A DNA stretch of 64,000 nucleotides from Pseudobacteriovorax antillogorgiicola. GTDB lineage: Bacteria; Bdellovibrionota_B; Oligoflexia; Oligoflexales; Oligoflexaceae. The notes beneath the pieces are model-generated. The model saw nothing but the letters and a program-made list of their open reading frames with translations, did no database searches and was not told the origin of the DNA. The stretch's first letter is position 1; the number at the start of each line of letters is the position of its first letter. The position numbers and the translations under genes were made by a program. Positions 33,412 through 42,253 of the stretch are shown here, one piece after another. The stretch is taken from the NCBI RefSeq assembly GCF_900177345.1, contig NZ_FWZT01000010.1:1-64000 (forward strand). The letters run 5' to 3'.

Positions 33412-35445
33412 ATGGAAAATTTCAAAAAAGCCCTAAAAGTTGCCATTACGGAGGAAGTTGAGGGGATTCGCTTTGATGCCAATCAGCCCCCTGTCCTCAT
33501 TCAATTCGCCAACGAGAAGCCCCTACCCGAGCTTGGGGTTTTGGAAGACTCCGTGGTTGACGAAATTGTACGGTCATTGATTCCAGACTCATCAAGTCAA
33601 CCGGGGGAGCCCACTAAGGGGGAGCTCTCGATTGTCAACTTCGGTGAGCTCAAGCTGATTGGTTGCACAGGAGAGCAGCCGGTCCTGTATGTGTTTATTC
33701 CCCCCCAAGGCAATCAGCTCTACGTACAAACCTGGAATCAGCTCACCGAAGAACCACAAGAGACCCCTGAGCCTCCCTCGCTATCCGAAGGCGTGGATGT
33801 TAGCGGTATGTTTTCCATCTCATCCATCCACGATGAAGAGCCTAGCACTGGTGAAGACTCTCAAAATGAAATCTCTGCCGAACATTCTATCCCTAGCTTG
33901 AGTCATGAAATGGCTTCGGACCCAAGCCCTGAAGAGTCCTTCGAATCATCCGCTACCACTCAGCATCGGGATAACCCCTTCCAAGGGGTGGCCTTATCCT
34001 CAGCCCCAGATGACGAATCGGAGGACCAAAACACCGCTCAAAGCGACCTAGCTTCCCTAGGTTTTAGCCAAGACGCGGTCTCCGATCTGCCTGACCATAC
34101 CCACACCAACACATCAGCATCACCGCGGAAAACCGTATTCAGCGAGCAGCCGCCACCCATGGCAGGCTTAGGCCAAACCACTATGGTTCCTCCAGAGGAA
34201 TCACCTCTTCCCACGGTTGCCCAAACTTACCAGCCGGAACCGAGCCCTGAGTCAGCAAGGCTATCGTCGATGCCCTCTGCCCATGAGCCAAACACCGAAG
34301 AGTCTAGTGCCACCATCCACTTCGGTGCAACGTTACCTGACGAAATGATCGACCCGAACCAACGAAACCCAATCGATGAAATCTTAAGAGTCATGGTTTC
34401 ACAAAATGCCAGCGACATGCACCTGACTCAGAATGAACCCATATGCTTCCGGGTGGACGGCGAGATTCTGAGAATCAATCAAGATCCGATCGATACTGCG
34501 ACTATGGAAAGCCTTCTCCTGCCGATCATGCCTCCTAAAAATCGCCGGGAGTTTGCAGCCATTAGCGACACGGATTTTGCTTATGCCGTGCCAGGATTAG
34601 CTCGCTTTAGGGTTAATATCTTTAGAGACTTACAAGGTGTTGGAGCGGTTCTTCGCCAAATACCAGATACCGTTCTCACCGCCGATCAATTGGGTCTTCC
34701 TGAGTCGATTCGAAAGCTATGCTACCTATCCAAAGGTCTGGTTGTGGTAACCGGACCCACTGGAAGTGGTAAATCGACGACCCTGGCAGCCATGATTGAT
34801 CTCATTAACGAGACCCGAAAAGAGCACATCCTAACCATCGAAGATCCCGTAGAGTTTGTCCATAAGCAGAAGCAGTGCCTGGTTAACCAACGAGAGGTTC
34901 ACAAACATACGGAAAGCTTTTCAAGAGCCCTTCGTGCTGCCCTACGGGAAGATCCCGATATTATTCTCATTGGCGAGATGAGGGATTTAGAAACCGTTGC
35001 CATTGCCATCGAAACCGCCGAGACGGGCCACCTAGTCTTTGGTACCCTTCATACTAATACAGCGATATCGACAGTGGATCGACTGGTTGATCAGTTCCCC
35101 GCAGACCAACAGGAACAGATCCGTGTGATGCTCGCTGAATCCCTAAAGGGTGTGGTTGCCCAAACCCTCGTCAAGAAAATCGGGGGTGGTCGCTGTGCGG
35201 CCCAGGAGATATTGATTGTCGATCGAGCTGTCAGCTCACTTATACGCGAAGGTAATACTCATATGATGCAGAATCATATGCAGACCCAAAAGTCGAAGGG
35301 GAACATACTCCTCAACGAAGCCCTACTCAAACTTGTCTTGGAAGGCAAGGTGAGTGCTCAGGACGCGTGGATGAAAGCAGTGGACAAGGATGCATTTGCC
35401 AATCTTGCCCAAAGTAAGGGTGTGAGCCTCGAAAAAGCATCGTAA
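33412..35445 (+). CDS. pilT: PilT-family twitching ATPase with long N-terminal extension
   Basis: PilT powers type IV pilus retraction as a cytoplasmic hexameric ATPase. The last 370 residues are a full PilT core: NPIDEILRVMVSQNASDMHL, Walker A GPTGSGKSTT at about 448-457, the Asp box (ILTIEDPVEFVH), Walker B IILIGEMRDLETV, and the His box GHLVFGTLHTNTAIS. Residues 1-about 310 are extra: an N-terminal folded-looking stretch of about 110 residues, then 200 residues of acidic, Ser/Pro-rich low complexity. Classical PilT lacks this, so it may be a regulated or specialised paralogue. It stands alone, with no pilus genes in the window. Confidence 0.88.
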   Translation: MENFKKALKVAITEEVEGIRFDANQPPVLIQFANEKPLPELGVLEDSVVDEIVRSLIPDSSSQPGEPTKGELSIVNFGELKLIGCTGEQPVLYVFIPPQGNQLYVQTWNQLTEEPQETPEPPSLSEGVDVSGMFSISSIHDEEPSTGEDSQNEISAEHSIPSLSHEMASDPSPEESFESSATTQHRDNPFQGVALSSAPDDESEDQNTAQSDLASLGFSQDAVSDLPDHTHTNTSASPRKTVFSEQPPPMAGLGQTTMVPPEESPLPTVAQTYQPEPSPESARLSSMPSAHEPNTEESSATIHFGATLPDEMIDPNQRNPIDEILRVMVSQNASDMHLTQNEPICFRVDGEILRINQDPIDTATMESLLLPIMPPKNRREFAAISDTDFAYAVPGLARFRVNIFRDLQGVGAVLRQIPDTVLTADQLGLPESIRKLCYLSKGLVVVTGPTGSGKSTTLAAMIDLINETRKEHILTIEDPVEFVHKQKQCLVNQREVHKHTESFSRALRAALREDPDIILIGEMRDLETVAIAIETAETGHLVFGTLHTNTAISTVDRLVDQFPADQQEQIRVMLAESLKGVVAQTLVKKIGGGRCAAQEILIVDRAVSSLIREGNTHMMQNHMQTQKSKGNILLNEALLKLVLEGKVSAQDAWMKAVDKDAFANLAQSKGVSLEKAS

Positions 35446-37064: not shown

Positions 37065-37424
37065 CTAGGCCCACCGGCCGTAATCTTTTTCAGAGTTTTT
37101 AGCTGCCATCATATTGGAATAATGAGCCCCAAGCAGGGCAAGGCTACCCAGACAATTGAGGAGGGTTTCATACCAAGCTCCGTGGAATTGATACGCAAGA
37201 CCCAACAAAGCCAAACCAAGAAGGGACATAAGCTTAATCATGACAGAGCCGTAAGGCATCAGAAATCGAACCGAATAAAGACTCACAATCACTAGCAATG
37301 CAACATGCACGGACTCTTGATCAAACCAAGGCCCAAGGGATGGAATCAACGGAAGTAGGAAGGGGGCTCCTAGGCAGTGGAGCAGGCAGGCTAGCGATAA
37401 GCCCATGCCCATCATATCTTTCAT
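37065..37424 (-). CDS. MerC-like small membrane protein
   Basis: The 119-residue product has four hydrophobic helices and begins MKDMMGMGLSLACLLHCLGA: the C-L-L-H-C pair in TM1 is the metal-binding feature of MerC-type transporters. Its partner gene is folE2, not mer genes, which suggests transport of another metal, plausibly zinc, as seen for MerC-like genes in Zur-controlled clusters; this is inference. TAGGAG is 6-11 bases before the ATG and sits inside a 12-bp stem (see 37425-37458). Confidence 0.78.
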   Translation of the reverse strand: MKDMMGMGLSLACLLHCLGAPFLLPLIPSLGPWFDQESVHVALLVIVSLYSVRFLMPYGSVMIKLMSLLGLALLGLAYQFHGAWYETLLNCLGSLALLGAHYSNMMAAKNSEKDYGRWA

Positions 37425-37502: not shown

Positions 37503-38999
37503 CTAAGGCTTGCGATAACCCCAAAGATCTCCGCTATCAGCCATTATGGCTTCAAAAATACTGTTGAATGATGCTCCCGTAGCACCAAACGTTGATCCAG
37601 GATAATCGCTGCTCCAGTTCCAAGTAGAGGCAAAAATATCAAAATGGATCATGGGCCCATCCACGAACTCTTTCAAAAAGTGTCCGGCAATGTTGGAACC
37701 ACCACCGATATTGGCGCTGGCGGGTAGACGCCCCATATTGGTGAGATCGGAGACCTTGCCTTTATTTGCCCACTTGAACGGCAAAAAAGAATCCCAAAAG
37801 GTGAAGTTTTCGCCAAATCTGTGAGCCTGCTCGCGAAGACTCAACTCGAACTGATGATTGGCAAAGTGAACCGGCGTAAAGTAGCCACTAAACTGCCGCA
37901 GTGCAGCTGTTGTGAGGGTCGCTGCAGTCAAGGTCAGACAAGGTTTGAGCTGCTCCTCGCCATACGCCAAGGCATCAGCTAGGATCAAACGACCTTCTGC
38001 ATCGGTGTGGTCTACAACAACGCTGTGCCCTTTATAACTTTTATAAATCGCCCCCGGCTTCATAGAGCGTTCCGCCACCAGATTCTCACAGGCGGGAATC
38101 ACCAATGCTAATGGCTTATCGTAGCCAGCTTTCACCAGAGCCATAAACAAGTTGCTCATGAGTGCGGCCCCACCCATGTCGTTTTTCATAGCATTGACAA
38201 AGCCTTCATAAGGCTTCACGTTGATGCCTCCGGTATCAAACGTTATCCCCTTACCAACAAGCATCAACGGCCGGTCGCCTGGCTTGATATTCGAGCCAAC
38301 CATATAAAGTCGTGAAGGAGAAAGCTCACTGGCTTGCCCCACCGCGAGCAGTAGATTCATTCCAAGTTCTTTGAGGCGCTCCCGATCGAACTCTTGGAAG
38401 TCACACTGATGACTTTTTGCAAAGGATTGCAAACGTCGACCGATTTCCAAAGATGTCATCACATCCGGCTCTTCGTTGATCCATTGACGATAGCCTTTCT
38501 GGTATTGAAGCCGTGGCTGAGCAAAGGCATCGCACTGCCTTAAGTCACCAAGATTTTTCACCATGGCGCGCACGGACGAGAGCTTAAGTTCGTTATAACT
38601 ATGATCACAGTAGGAGAAAAAGGTATCCTCGGCCATCGCTAGCTGCCACGGTTCAATCTCATCCCCTGCTAAGTAGATTGCTAGTTTCTGAATCGACTCA
38701 AATTGAGTTTTTAACTTTTTTACCAACTGCCCAAGCAACCATCGCTTTTCTAAGCTTGGCGTGTCGAAGGCTGTCCAACGAACAACGACAAAGGGTTTGT
38801 GCTGACTTTTGGAAAAGCCAACAAAGGTCTTAAGGTATTCGATCTCTCTGGAAAGGCTGGGGATCGCTTCTTGCTCTAGGGAAATGATCCAGTTTTCCTG
38901 CTCGCTTTGCTCACGTGTGATTACCAGTAGTAATTCATCATTTTGATGAGAATCTGGAAAACCCTCTCCCACCGATTCCCAATTTAAACTCGCCATCAA
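37503..38999 (-). CDS. M17 leucyl aminopeptidase family protein
   Basis: The 498-residue product has the M17 catalytic core: GKGITFDTGGINVKPYEG (metal-binding Lys and Asp), MKNDMGGAALMSN (Asp) and VVDHTDAEGRLILADALAYG (Asp, Glu, Arg). The N-terminal half is the divergent family domain. Such enzymes remove N-terminal residues from peptides in the cytoplasm. It overlaps the upstream DUF455/ATP-grasp gene by ATGA (38996-38999), so the two are translationally coupled, which is an unusual partnership. The canonical N-T-D-A-E-G-R is H-T-D-A-E-G-R here. Confidence 0.88.
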   Translation of the reverse strand: MMASLNWESVGEGFPDSHQNDELLLVITREQSEQENWIISLEQEAIPSLSREIEYLKTFVGFSKSQHKPFVVVRWTAFDTPSLEKRWLLGQLVKKLKTQFESIQKLAIYLAGDEIEPWQLAMAEDTFFSYCDHSYNELKLSSVRAMVKNLGDLRQCDAFAQPRLQYQKGYRQWINEEPDVMTSLEIGRRLQSFAKSHQCDFQEFDRERLKELGMNLLLAVGQASELSPSRLYMVGSNIKPGDRPLMLVGKGITFDTGGINVKPYEGFVNAMKNDMGGAALMSNLFMALVKAGYDKPLALVIPACENLVAERSMKPGAIYKSYKGHSVVVDHTDAEGRLILADALAYGEEQLKPCLTLTAATLTTAALRQFSGYFTPVHFANHQFELSLREQAHRFGENFTFWDSFLPFKWANKGKVSDLTNMGRLPASANIGGGSNIAGHFLKEFVDGPMIHFDIFASTWNWSSDYPGSTFGATGASFNSIFEAIMADSGDLWGYRKP

Positions 39000-41092
39000 T
39001 CACCCCTCAGATGCAGGTTGAATTTTTTGTCCAATAGTCTAAGCACGTTCTGATCCCCAAGTAAAAATGAAACTGCACCAAGAGCTGTTTCAGGGTCATT
39101 CGTAAACAAAATATCTTGTTCACTGGCAACTTGTTCCTTAATCTCATTTGCCAGTGTCTTCACCGAGTCATAGCCCGCTTGCTTGACCTCTGATAGGGTT
39201 ATCGTGAGCCAAAGGTGAGGGCGTTGCAAACGGAGATTTTTTTCTAGGGCAGTTGCAACATGAGCCATGGTCATCCGGCCATTGATTTCACCGAGTATTT
39301 TACAATACAGTTGCCCATCATGAGGCCAACGAAACACAAAAAAATCGACTCCTGCTGGTCCCTTGTAACCTTTCTCTCGAACATAAGTCTGGAGCTTTTT
39401 CCCAGCTTTTAAGATCTGATCAAGACGGGCTTGCCCGGTGTGATCGTGCCCCAAAACATAGGGACGAAGACTAGGCGCGATCTTCTGCGCTAAGGGGCCG
39501 AGCTTATGGCCTCGGTACCGCCCCTTATCATCAGTGAGGAAAAACGTGGCCTGAACATCAGAATCACTATGGTTCCAAATTAACGACCCATCTAGCACTC
39601 GATCAAGCCATGGCTCGACAATGACTTTGCCATGCAAACTGAGCTGCTTGGCAATCCAACCTCTTTGGGAGTCACTGCCAGACTCTCTAAGAAATATGCG
39701 ACACTGACCAGCCCCGGAAAAGCCGAAAGGCGACTTAACTACCCCATGAAGCCCTGAGTCGTGAAGCCCTTGAATCATATTCCAGACACTTTGGCTATCA
39801 AAGGCAATCTTTCCATCGCATACCTGAGGACCCATAAGAGAATCCCAGTCTGGATTCTGGCGTAAGCCGTGGCGCAGATCAGGGCAGTGAGTCTTTTCAA
39901 ATAAGCTCTTAATAGACATGTTAAACTCAGGGCCTTTTTGAAAGCGAAACGACTTCGCTTCGATAGCAGCTTCCAATTCCTTAGCTCGGGGAGTCCAACC
40001 CCAAGGCTGCAAAGCCGAGAAACTTCGATAAGCGCAAAGGTCCCTTAGCTCTGCCTTACTTCCCTGCCAAGGAATAAACTCTACGAGCTTGCCAATCCGA
40101 TCTTTTAGGTAGCGCTGATAAGACAAGCTCGGTGGATTCTGACAAAGCAAAGCGTCGCCGTTGCTTGCTACGAACATTGGCAAAAGCTCAAAGTCTGCCA
40201 TCAAACGCTTCACCCCAGCACTCGGCGAATACCCTGGTTTACCATGGGCATTTTCCAGCTCACAGTCTGCGTTGTACCAATAAAGCTTAGGACATCGCCC
40301 TTTAGGGTTTTCAAAAACTTCCATTGCGTCTACATACTCTCCGCTAAAACCTGCCCGTAGCCTACCATCACGATCGAAGCCGATGCCTTTGGCCCGCGCG
40401 ATCGTTAGGGGTTGCCTGCCAAACATAGCAAGACGGTGAGACGACCACTGGCTCCGTTCATGGGATCGCCAACGATCAAACCACGTGACTCCATATTTCA
40501 CATGTCCAATCTCGTCCTGATAAACCTTGTCAAGCAAGGTAGAGGTCTCATGATCGCCAATTCTATTCATGAGCCTAATATAGTGGCGACTATAATCCAA
40601 ATTAGCTTGCTCAAAAGTCATACTCATGCCTGTAACATAATCCATGGGCGAAGCCATGTCTTTGAGCGAGTTCCAAAAGAAGTCGTTCACAGCAATCTCG
40701 CCGAGCTCCATACCCAAAGACTCCATTCGCTTCTGGTAAAGGATCATATGGTCTTGCTCTTCGAAAATGGTCTCGGCAATGCCCCGCCGAAAGGCCTTGG
40801 GAGCGTCTGGAAATTTTAATAAGGCTAAGGCCATGAGTTCCATGGCAAGCAGCTCATGATTGGCGAAAAAGTGAAGGATGGCCGCTCGGTTTTCGCCCTG
40901 GTCAAGCTGGTGATCTTTAGGAAACGGGCGCCGGGTTTTCAAACCCGGCATCAGTATCAGGGGTCGGCCTGGGAATTGCGGGCGATCGATGGAGTTCCAA
41001 GGCTGATCATCAGTTAAAACTTCTGGGCGAAGTAGTTTATCTTTGAGACTTGTTCCAAAAAGAATAGCCTCGGCGAACTCTCGAATCTCCAT
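38996..41092 (-). CDS. DUF455 (ferritin-like) and ATP-grasp fusion protein
   Basis: Residues about 30-230 match the DUF455 ferritin-like fold: FFANHELLAMELMALALL, ETIFEEQDHMILYQKRM, TFEQANLDYSRHY and VYQDEIGHVKYGVTWF supply the Glu/His ligand pairs for a di-iron site. Residues about 420-640 look like an ATP-grasp ligase (VVKSPFGFSGAGQCRIF, VIVEPWLDRVLDGSLIW, GPAGVDFFVF, and a metal-binding ILGEINGRMTM). The whole 698-residue protein begins 10 bases after trpS and overlaps the M17 peptidase gene. A role in oxidising or ligating an amino acid or peptide is inferred; I know no characterised homologue of this fusion. Confidence 0.78.
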   Translation of the reverse strand: MEIREFAEAILFGTSLKDKLLRPEVLTDDQPWNSIDRPQFPGRPLILMPGLKTRRPFPKDHQLDQGENRAAILHFFANHELLAMELMALALLKFPDAPKAFRRGIAETIFEEQDHMILYQKRMESLGMELGEIAVNDFFWNSLKDMASPMDYVTGMSMTFEQANLDYSRHYIRLMNRIGDHETSTLLDKVYQDEIGHVKYGVTWFDRWRSHERSQWSSHRLAMFGRQPLTIARAKGIGFDRDGRLRAGFSGEYVDAMEVFENPKGRCPKLYWYNADCELENAHGKPGYSPSAGVKRLMADFELLPMFVASNGDALLCQNPPSLSYQRYLKDRIGKLVEFIPWQGSKAELRDLCAYRSFSALQPWGWTPRAKELEAAIEAKSFRFQKGPEFNMSIKSLFEKTHCPDLRHGLRQNPDWDSLMGPQVCDGKIAFDSQSVWNMIQGLHDSGLHGVVKSPFGFSGAGQCRIFLRESGSDSQRGWIAKQLSLHGKVIVEPWLDRVLDGSLIWNHSDSDVQATFFLTDDKGRYRGHKLGPLAQKIAPSLRPYVLGHDHTGQARLDQILKAGKKLQTYVREKGYKGPAGVDFFVFRWPHDGQLYCKILGEINGRMTMAHVATALEKNLRLQRPHLWLTITLSEVKQAGYDSVKTLANEIKEQVASEQDILFTNDPETALGAVSFLLGDQNVLRLLDKKFNLHLRGD

Positions 41093-41102
41093 AACCTGCT
41101 TT

Positions 41103-42107
41103 CTACGGCATTACGAAGCCAACCCGCTCGTAAACTCGTTTGATTGTCTGCTCAGCTCGCTCGCGAGCCTTTTCAGCACCATTGCGAAGAATGCGCTCTA
41201 GTTCAGTGCGATCCGAAAGAAGCTCTTGGGTGCGTGCCCTGATCGGGTCAAGCTCAGCATTGACGATTTCAGCCGTATCGACTTTAAGGTGGCCATACAT
41301 TTTACCTTCGTAGGACTGCACCAGCTCCTCGGTACTCTTGCCAGTTATCGCTGACTGGATATCAAGCAAGTTGCAGATTCCCGGCTTCCCGTCCCGATCA
41401 TAGGTAATTTCCGAGCCTGAATCAGTCATGGCCCGTTTTAACTTTTTCTCAACCTGCTTGGCGGAGTCTGCCAAGAAGATGGTCCCCGCCTCAGATTCGG
41501 CACTCTTCGACATTTTAGATGTCGGGTTTTGTAAATCCATAATCTTTGCCCCCGCTTTGGGAATGTAGACTTCCGGCACCACAAAGGTATCATCCCCATA
41601 GAGTCCATTCATTCTTTGCCCAAGATCACGGGTTAATTCCACGTGCTGCTTTTGGTCTTGCCCCACGGGCACCAAATGAGTGTCATAAAGCAGAATATCT
41701 GCTGCCATAAGCAACGGATACGTGTAGAGGCCGACTGGAATGTTTGCTCCCGCCCGGGTGGACTTGTCCTTAAACTGAGTCATCCGGTTGAGCTCACCCA
41801 TATAGCCATAGCAATTCAAAACCCAGGCCAGCTGAGTGTGTTGGCCAACGTGGGATTGCGCAAACAGAAAACTTTTTTCGGGATCGATACCAGAAGCGAT
41901 GTAGGTGGCAATAGCAAACCATGTGTTTTCACGGAGTTTTTCTGGTTCCTGACGAACAGTGATAGCATGTTGGTCAACAACCATAAAAAAGCAGGTGTAC
42001 TCATTCTGCAACTTGACCCAGTTCTTGATGGCCCCGAGATAATTTCCAAGTGTCAGATTAGCAGTGGGTTGGATTCCAGAAAGTATGTTTTTTTTAGTCA
42101 TAGTCAC
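41103..42107 (-). CDS. trpS: tryptophanyl-tRNA synthetase
   Basis: This class I synthetase charges tRNA-Trp. The 334-residue product has the HIGH-type motif in its common variant (LTLGNYLGAIKNW), the Trp-binding segment AADILLYDTHLVPVGQDQKQ, and KMSKS (in PTSKMSKS). Length is normal. It is the promoter-proximal gene of a tight block with the DUF455/ATP-grasp fusion (10 bases) and M17 peptidase. A 150-base gap with a stem-loop separates it from clpA upstream. Confidence 0.95.
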   Translation of the reverse strand: MTMTKKNILSGIQPTANLTLGNYLGAIKNWVKLQNEYTCFFMVVDQHAITVRQEPEKLRENTWFAIATYIASGIDPEKSFLFAQSHVGQHTQLAWVLNCYGYMGELNRMTQFKDKSTRAGANIPVGLYTYPLLMAADILLYDTHLVPVGQDQKQHVELTRDLGQRMNGLYGDDTFVVPEVYIPKAGAKIMDLQNPTSKMSKSAESEAGTIFLADSAKQVEKKLKRAMTDSGSEITYDRDGKPGICNLLDIQSAITGKSTEELVQSYEGKMYGHLKVDTAEIVNAELDPIRARTQELLSDRTELERILRNGAEKARERAEQTIKRVYERVGFVMP

Positions 42108-42229: not shown

Positions 42230-42253
42230 GCTGCCTCCCGGATAGGAGGCAGC
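42230..42253 (-). terminator. stem-loop downstream of clpA
   Basis: GCTGCCTCC (42230-42238) pairs with GGAGGCAGC (42245-42253) around six bases, a strong 9-bp GC-rich stem 6 bases after the clpA stop. On the minus strand it is followed by TCTATGCCC, not a T-tract, so it could be a terminator of uncertain strength or a processing/stability element. Confidence 0.5.

Follow-up and report, generated by a model that had tools for sequence, protein, structure and literature searches.

A putative ferritin-like di-iron oxidase and ATP-grasp ligase module, fused in Pseudobacteriovorax antillogorgiicola and paired in distant bacteria

In a stretch of 64,000 nucleotides from Pseudobacteriovorax antillogorgiicola (the window), we identify one 698-residue protein that bears two predicted activities. 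Its N-terminal half is assigned from sequence and model as a four-helix domain of the ferritin-like kind that has every di-iron ligand of the bacterioferritin set, and its C-terminal half as a pre-ATP-grasp/ATP-grasp protein of the PGM1/LdmS type with putative ATP and Mg residues intact. The conserved partner is internal to the fusion, DUF455 with the ATP-grasp protein, and sequence comparisons indicate that distant lineages retain the two as a pair, be they fused, adjacent, or unlinked but co-occurring. We propose, at roughly even confidence, that the fusion is a bifunctional, self-contained two-step enzyme in which the ligase would create an amide bond on an amino acid or a short peptide, and the di-iron half would oxidize the substrate or the product. 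More tentatively, it may represent an undescribed module of ferritin-like di-iron oxidase and ATP-grasp ligase, core-like in distant bacteria and fused at least once, that makes or tailors a conserved amide or short-peptide metabolite outside gene clusters. An earlier note on this DNA had read trpS, the fusion and an M17 aminopeptidase as a single system; the fusion, as a conserved oxidase-ligase module, is a better finding than the three-gene block.

The fusion gene (38996-41092, minus strand) is single copy in the genome. On the same strand it is preceded by trpS, encoding tryptophanyl-tRNA synthetase (41103-42107), and followed by a gene of the M17 leucyl-aminopeptidase family (37503-38999). 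Profile matches, ligands, fold and residues place the putative DUF455 domain at residues 1-260 (40313-41092, minus strand) and the predicted pre-ATP-grasp and ATP-grasp ligase part at residues 265-698 (38999-40300, minus strand). Open reading frames, Pfam and fold bear out the three genes and the 698-residue fusion that had been described, and the coordinates agree with the 10-base gap noted between trpS and the fusion. The ATGA overlap reported between the fusion and the M17 gene is corrected here: the junction reads ...GGTGATTGATGGCG, where the fusion stop TGA at 38998-38996 shares its final A with the M17 ATG at 38996, and the overlap is TGATG, or TTGA if the M17 gene starts at TTG. The likely start is the ATG at 38996, which has AGGGG ahead of it. 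Upstream, clpS-clpA ends 151 bases ahead of trpS; downstream of the M17 gene lie a MerC-like gene and folE2.

The N-terminal half matches DUF455 (PF04305) over residues 36-254 with E=4.9e-44, and its 151.2 bits exceed the curated cut-off of 34.3. Modelled alone, it gives a pLDDT of 95.8 and resembles bacterioferritins, Dps-like proteins and aldehyde-deformylating oxygenase (match probability 1.0, with modest E-values), with N- and C-terminal additions outside the four-helix core. The six candidate di-iron ligands of the fusion (E80, E112, H115, E161, E194 and H197) are all intact, and they are invariant in 67/67 DUF455 sequences from all lineages. Their computed spacing, E80-E112xxH115-E161-E194xxH197, matches E..ExxH..E..ExxH, the di-iron ligand pattern of bacterioferritins. 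The modeled four-helix bundle and its ligands together identify a putative ferritin-like di-iron protein. Ordinary DUF455/PF04305 proteins, such as that of Sinorhizobium, carry the same di-iron ligands; however, for the ordinary member examined in its annotated context no ligase gene lies alongside, whereas the subfamily of the fusion is tied to a ligase. In the literature searched, no function is assigned to DUF455, COG2833, PF04305 or DUF3182.

For the C-terminal half, the window protein alone gave no ATP-grasp model above threshold in Pfam or NCBIfam and no match in a phmmer search of the PDB. The assignment holds because fusion orthologues match DUF3182 (7e-9), PreAtp-grasp (8e-6) and ATP-grasp_3, and because both profile and predicted fold fit solved ATP-grasp ligases. 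The top Foldseek matches of this half are a Streptomyces peptide ligase (8ynd, 3e-13) and PGM1 (3wvq, 3e-12), with LdmS (7r8p, 4e-10) and BesA (8yi6, 4e-9) further down. A profile that included stand-alone relatives, searched against the PDB, retrieved LdmS (7r8p, 8e-10), 8ynd (2e-4) and PGM1 (9e-3); these nearest solved ligases are only ~13-17% identical to the fusion across the fold match. DUF3182 has itself been recognized as an ATP-grasp fold (PMC4431377). The AlphaFold model of the whole fusion reaches a pLDDT of 89.2 and a pTM of 0.87, and its candidate ligase residues are K453, E493, D583 and E602-x-N604-x-R606. D583, N604 and R606 are invariant in 68/68 ligase sequences, among which E or D stands at position 602 and K at position 453, the latter replaced by R in four.

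The predicted fold, with its lysine, G-rich loop, aspartate and E-x-N-x-R set of Mg/ATP residues, places this half in the ATP-grasp superfamily. Both Foldseek and the PDB profile search thereby uphold the earlier note, which had read the C-terminal half as ATP-grasp and named a fold comparison as the check; likewise, the Glu/His motifs it saw as intact and the di-iron and ATP-Mg sites it wished modeled are found as complete residue sets in a confident fold. Because these residues are nearly or fully invariant across lineages, both predicted active sites are kept by selection. An end-to-end alignment of 23 divergent fusion orthologues argues that the joining of the two halves is more than chance.

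How firmly the halves are paired is best judged across lineages. The fusion is found in 40/58 genomes of the phylum. An initial contig scan had yielded only four near relatives; in a comparison of 383 relatives' genomes, the DUF455 subfamily closest to that of the fusion (over 200 bits) is found outside the phylum in five genomes from three families, and all five also hold an ATP-grasp relative, which is present in only 10/325 extra-phylum genomes. In the class of genome G185, the two genes are adjacent in 4/4 positive genomes. The order of G304 has matches in 123/184 genomes; where an ATP-grasp match is among the matches listed (27 genomes), the genes are adjacent on one strand in 24, on different contigs in two and 3.3 kb apart in one. 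Complete fusions occur in two genomes of this order besides those 27, G723 (L161, E 9e-199) and G780 (L162, 4.5e-177). Within the class of G330 the loci are unlinked, with both genes present in 54/199 genomes and neither in 145/199; in the family of G330, at least two matches occur in 150/170 genomes, nearly always one of each, and the 16 genomes with one match are mostly incomplete assemblies. Genomes within each lineage count are related, so p-values computed from them exaggerate the evidence; the weight of these numbers lies in repetition over four lineages far apart from one another and over three ways of arranging the genes. In whole families the genes are core-like.

Phylogeny adds to this picture for one half. 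In the DUF455 tree, a single group (support 96/94) takes in the DUF455 part of every fusion, and the split forms branch immediately outside it; branches are long in the ATP-grasp tree, which leaves undecided whether fused or split forms came first. One apparent fusion, in G385, is actually two genes about 30 bases apart. The fusions of G723 and G780 sit in an order that otherwise has separate genes, and they may have been exchanged horizontally with the Oligoflexus group, in either direction.

ATP-grasp enzymes of the LdmS/PGM1/BesA type join an ATP-activated carboxylate to an amine, and a ferritin-like di-iron center can oxidize a bound substrate using O2. By analogy, the ATP-grasp half of the fusion would convert a carboxylate to an acyl phosphate and join it to an amine, giving an amide or short peptide from an amino-acid-like substrate. 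The di-iron half may perform an O2-driven oxidation (hydroxylation, desaturation or cleavage) of substrate or product, and fusion or proximity would hand the intermediate from one half to the other. The bond is a guess, since the ATP-grasp superfamily also has members that ligate carboxylates to thiols or to hydroxyls, as well as kinases (PMC4431377). The earlier note's reading of the domains and its idea of a ligating and oxidizing enzyme are supported; its M17 cleavage partner is not, as that linkage is not conserved.

No shared third neighbor was found in the fusion's own order, in ten genomes of the G330 class or at 21 loci of the G304 order, apart from antisense shadow open reading frames. 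Elsewhere the fusion adjoins unrelated genes, among them Tsp protease with a DCC1-like gene, MnmA, adenine deaminase, U32, ABC-F, acyl-CoA dehydrogenase and FliL/FliM. As neither gene has a constant third neighbor, the two probably act on a common cell metabolite and not on something made by a dedicated cluster. In some cases the ligase can do without the oxidase, since stand-alone relatives lack this DUF455: no DUF455 match is listed in the Prevotella and Bacteroides plasmid records that hold a ligase relative. The presence of a ligase relative in these records from anaerobes suggests that ligation is the core and oxidation an add-on in oxygen-using bacteria. The relatives in question (L108:5995-7104 and L107:5986-7191) are labeled hypothetical or are unannotated.

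Comparison with known systems sets the fusion apart from each of them. Among solved proteins, LdmS, the L-aspartate-L-methionine ligase (SAOUHSC_02373, PDB 7r8p, NF047900), scores best against the ligase half by sequence and shares its ATP-grasp fold and residues; unlike the fusion, it has no di-iron domain. The ligase of the fusion is not an LdmS, because relatives score at most ~21 bits against an NF047900 cut-off of 475 and the ligase half of the window protein gives no match. PGM1 (pheganomycin peptide ligase, 3wvq) and 8ynd, its top fold matches, have the pre-ATP-grasp plus ATP-grasp layout in common with it. PGM1, which couples an amino acid with a peptide, is encoded in an antibiotic gene cluster (PMC8939145), whereas the fusion gene lies in no cluster and is joined to DUF455. 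The loci read have no shared neighbors that could supply the precursor peptide and tailoring genes of a PGM1-type cluster, and the gaps of 10 bases and 1 base between the three genes here are too short to accommodate a precursor gene.

Precedent for combining the two chemistries comes from HDO di-iron oxidases, whose genes were found in the vicinity of ATP-grasp ligase genes in no fewer than 25 types of gene cluster, that of mangotoxin among them (PMC13185094). Mangotoxin/BesA-type pathways likewise pair an O2-dependent di-iron enzyme with an ATP-grasp amino-acid ligase (PMC13185094), but there the oxidase has a haem-oxygenase-like fold and the enzymes are separate and clustered, whereas here the fold is ferritin-like, the enzymes are fused and no cluster is seen. 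This combination of a fusion, a ferritin-like fold with an ATP-grasp ligase and the lack of a cluster is not described in the literature searched. With our data, the known pairing of di-iron oxidase and ATP-grasp ligase comes to include the ferritin-like fold and a natural fusion. One DUF455 subfamily is linked to a ligase of the amino-acid or peptide type, and its function becomes testable, as a single protein bears both predicted activities. If a conserved small molecule is indeed made, it would count as a new core metabolite or modification that mining of genomes by cluster overlooks, its genes sitting in no cluster.

Two other readings of the module bear weighing. The first, to which we give a low probability, is that it modifies a macromolecule, the ligase coupling an amino acid either to RNA or to a protein, at a side chain or a terminus in the manner of RimK, and the di-iron half hydroxylating the target. 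MiaE is a ferritin-like enzyme that hydroxylates tRNA. The core-like status of the genes in whole families, without biosynthetic neighbors, is consistent with such a role, as is the weak match of some ligase relatives to RimK_fam. Some copies also adjoin RNA genes, namely trpS in the fusion's own family, MnmA in G008 and a gene of the U32 peptidase family in G033, and MiaA adjoins the stand-alone ligase in G205. However, RNA-type neighbors are few and unsystematic, with most neighbors unrelated (flagellar, ABC-F, protease, dehydrogenase), and the top-scoring solved relatives are amino-acid or peptide ligases.

The second reading, to which we assign a slim chance, denies the ferritin-like half any tailoring role and casts it in iron storage or oxidation, peroxide removal, or sensing of O2 or iron that gates the ligase. 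Ferritin-like domains also serve as ferroxidases, peroxidases or sensors, and this account draws on the fold matches to bacterioferritins and Dps-like proteins alongside aldehyde-deformylating oxygenase, on a weak Pfam match of the fusion to Rubrerythrin, and on the related ligases without DUF455 on Bacteroidota plasmids. A single-copy fusion, or a fixed pairing with one ligase subfamily, would nevertheless be odd for storage, and the additions at both termini reach beyond the four-helix core. The two-step oxidase-ligase enzyme is our preferred reading.

The genes on either side of the fusion keep its company over a much shorter range. The trpS product is a clear synthetase (tRNA-synt_1b E=4.1e-80 in Pfam; TIGR00233 E=1.9e-108) whose gene stands ahead of the fusion in six genomes of the same family; among the families of the order that were read, no other has it there. 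It is not a specialized second copy, as the genome holds one trpS only. The aminopeptidase matches PF00883 (E=3.2e-69) and conserves K250, D255, K262, D274, D333, E335 and R337, the metal and catalytic residues of M17 enzymes, which places it in that family; its orthologues, 48-56% identical, form a distinct subfamily. Where this subfamily and the fusion both occur (19 genomes), the genes are adjacent in 4, all of the same family, 10-13 kb apart in 2 and on other contigs in 13. Although 19/20 genomes with an M17 orthologue hold the fusion, the orthologue is missing from 21/40 fusion genomes, and M17 as a conserved fusion partner was rejected since the linkage is lost outside the family.

These counts, which the earlier note had called for, go against its single trpS-fusion-M17 system, and nothing supports tryptophan as substrate or a tie to ClpS-ClpA or N-degron turnover, clpS-clpA being next door in only one relative among the loci read. 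Despite the tight gene spacing, the clpS-clpA-trpS-fusion-M17 order also found in G001, the fusion-M17 order in G002 and G003, and the near-constant presence of the fusion alongside M17, we consider one peptide- or amino-acid-modifying system, Trp-specific or N-degron-tied or otherwise, highly improbable: it is largely refuted by the loss of linkage, the trpS involved is the sole copy of the genome, and M17 more commonly has a T2SSE ATPase gene next to it or belongs to an operon of the gamma-glutamyl-amine type. The two genes are probably the local company of the fusion, either bystanders or lineage-specific co-transcribed genes, and the M17 gene, probably co-transcribed, lies outside the conserved module. 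An anti-phage defense role was also set aside, as no PADLOC profile matched any of the three proteins.

Several features of the surrounding sequence may be recorded. A T2SSE/PilT-like ATPase gene (33412-35445 in the window) is found near the M17 gene in 8 genomes of two families, adjoining it in several and lying a few genes off in the window, a link more durable than that between M17 and the fusion. In another family (L113:5413-11603), M17 is the last gene of an operon that also holds glutamine-synthetase-like (GS-like), Fe-ADH, C26/PuuD-like peptidase and aldehyde dehydrogenase genes and that looks like a pathway for breakdown of a gamma-glutamyl-amine (ethanolamine or putrescine). The P. 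antillogorgiicola genome has five genes of the M17 family (G000:C5, C12, C26), of which the window copy has the lowest Pfam score. The MerC-like gene between M17 and folE2 (37065-37424, E=3.7e-14) encodes a small membrane protein and is absent from the relatives' loci read. Just past clpA and ahead of trpS, at 42233-42250, lies a GC-rich inverted repeat, GCCTCC-tatcc-GGGAGGC, with no T run.
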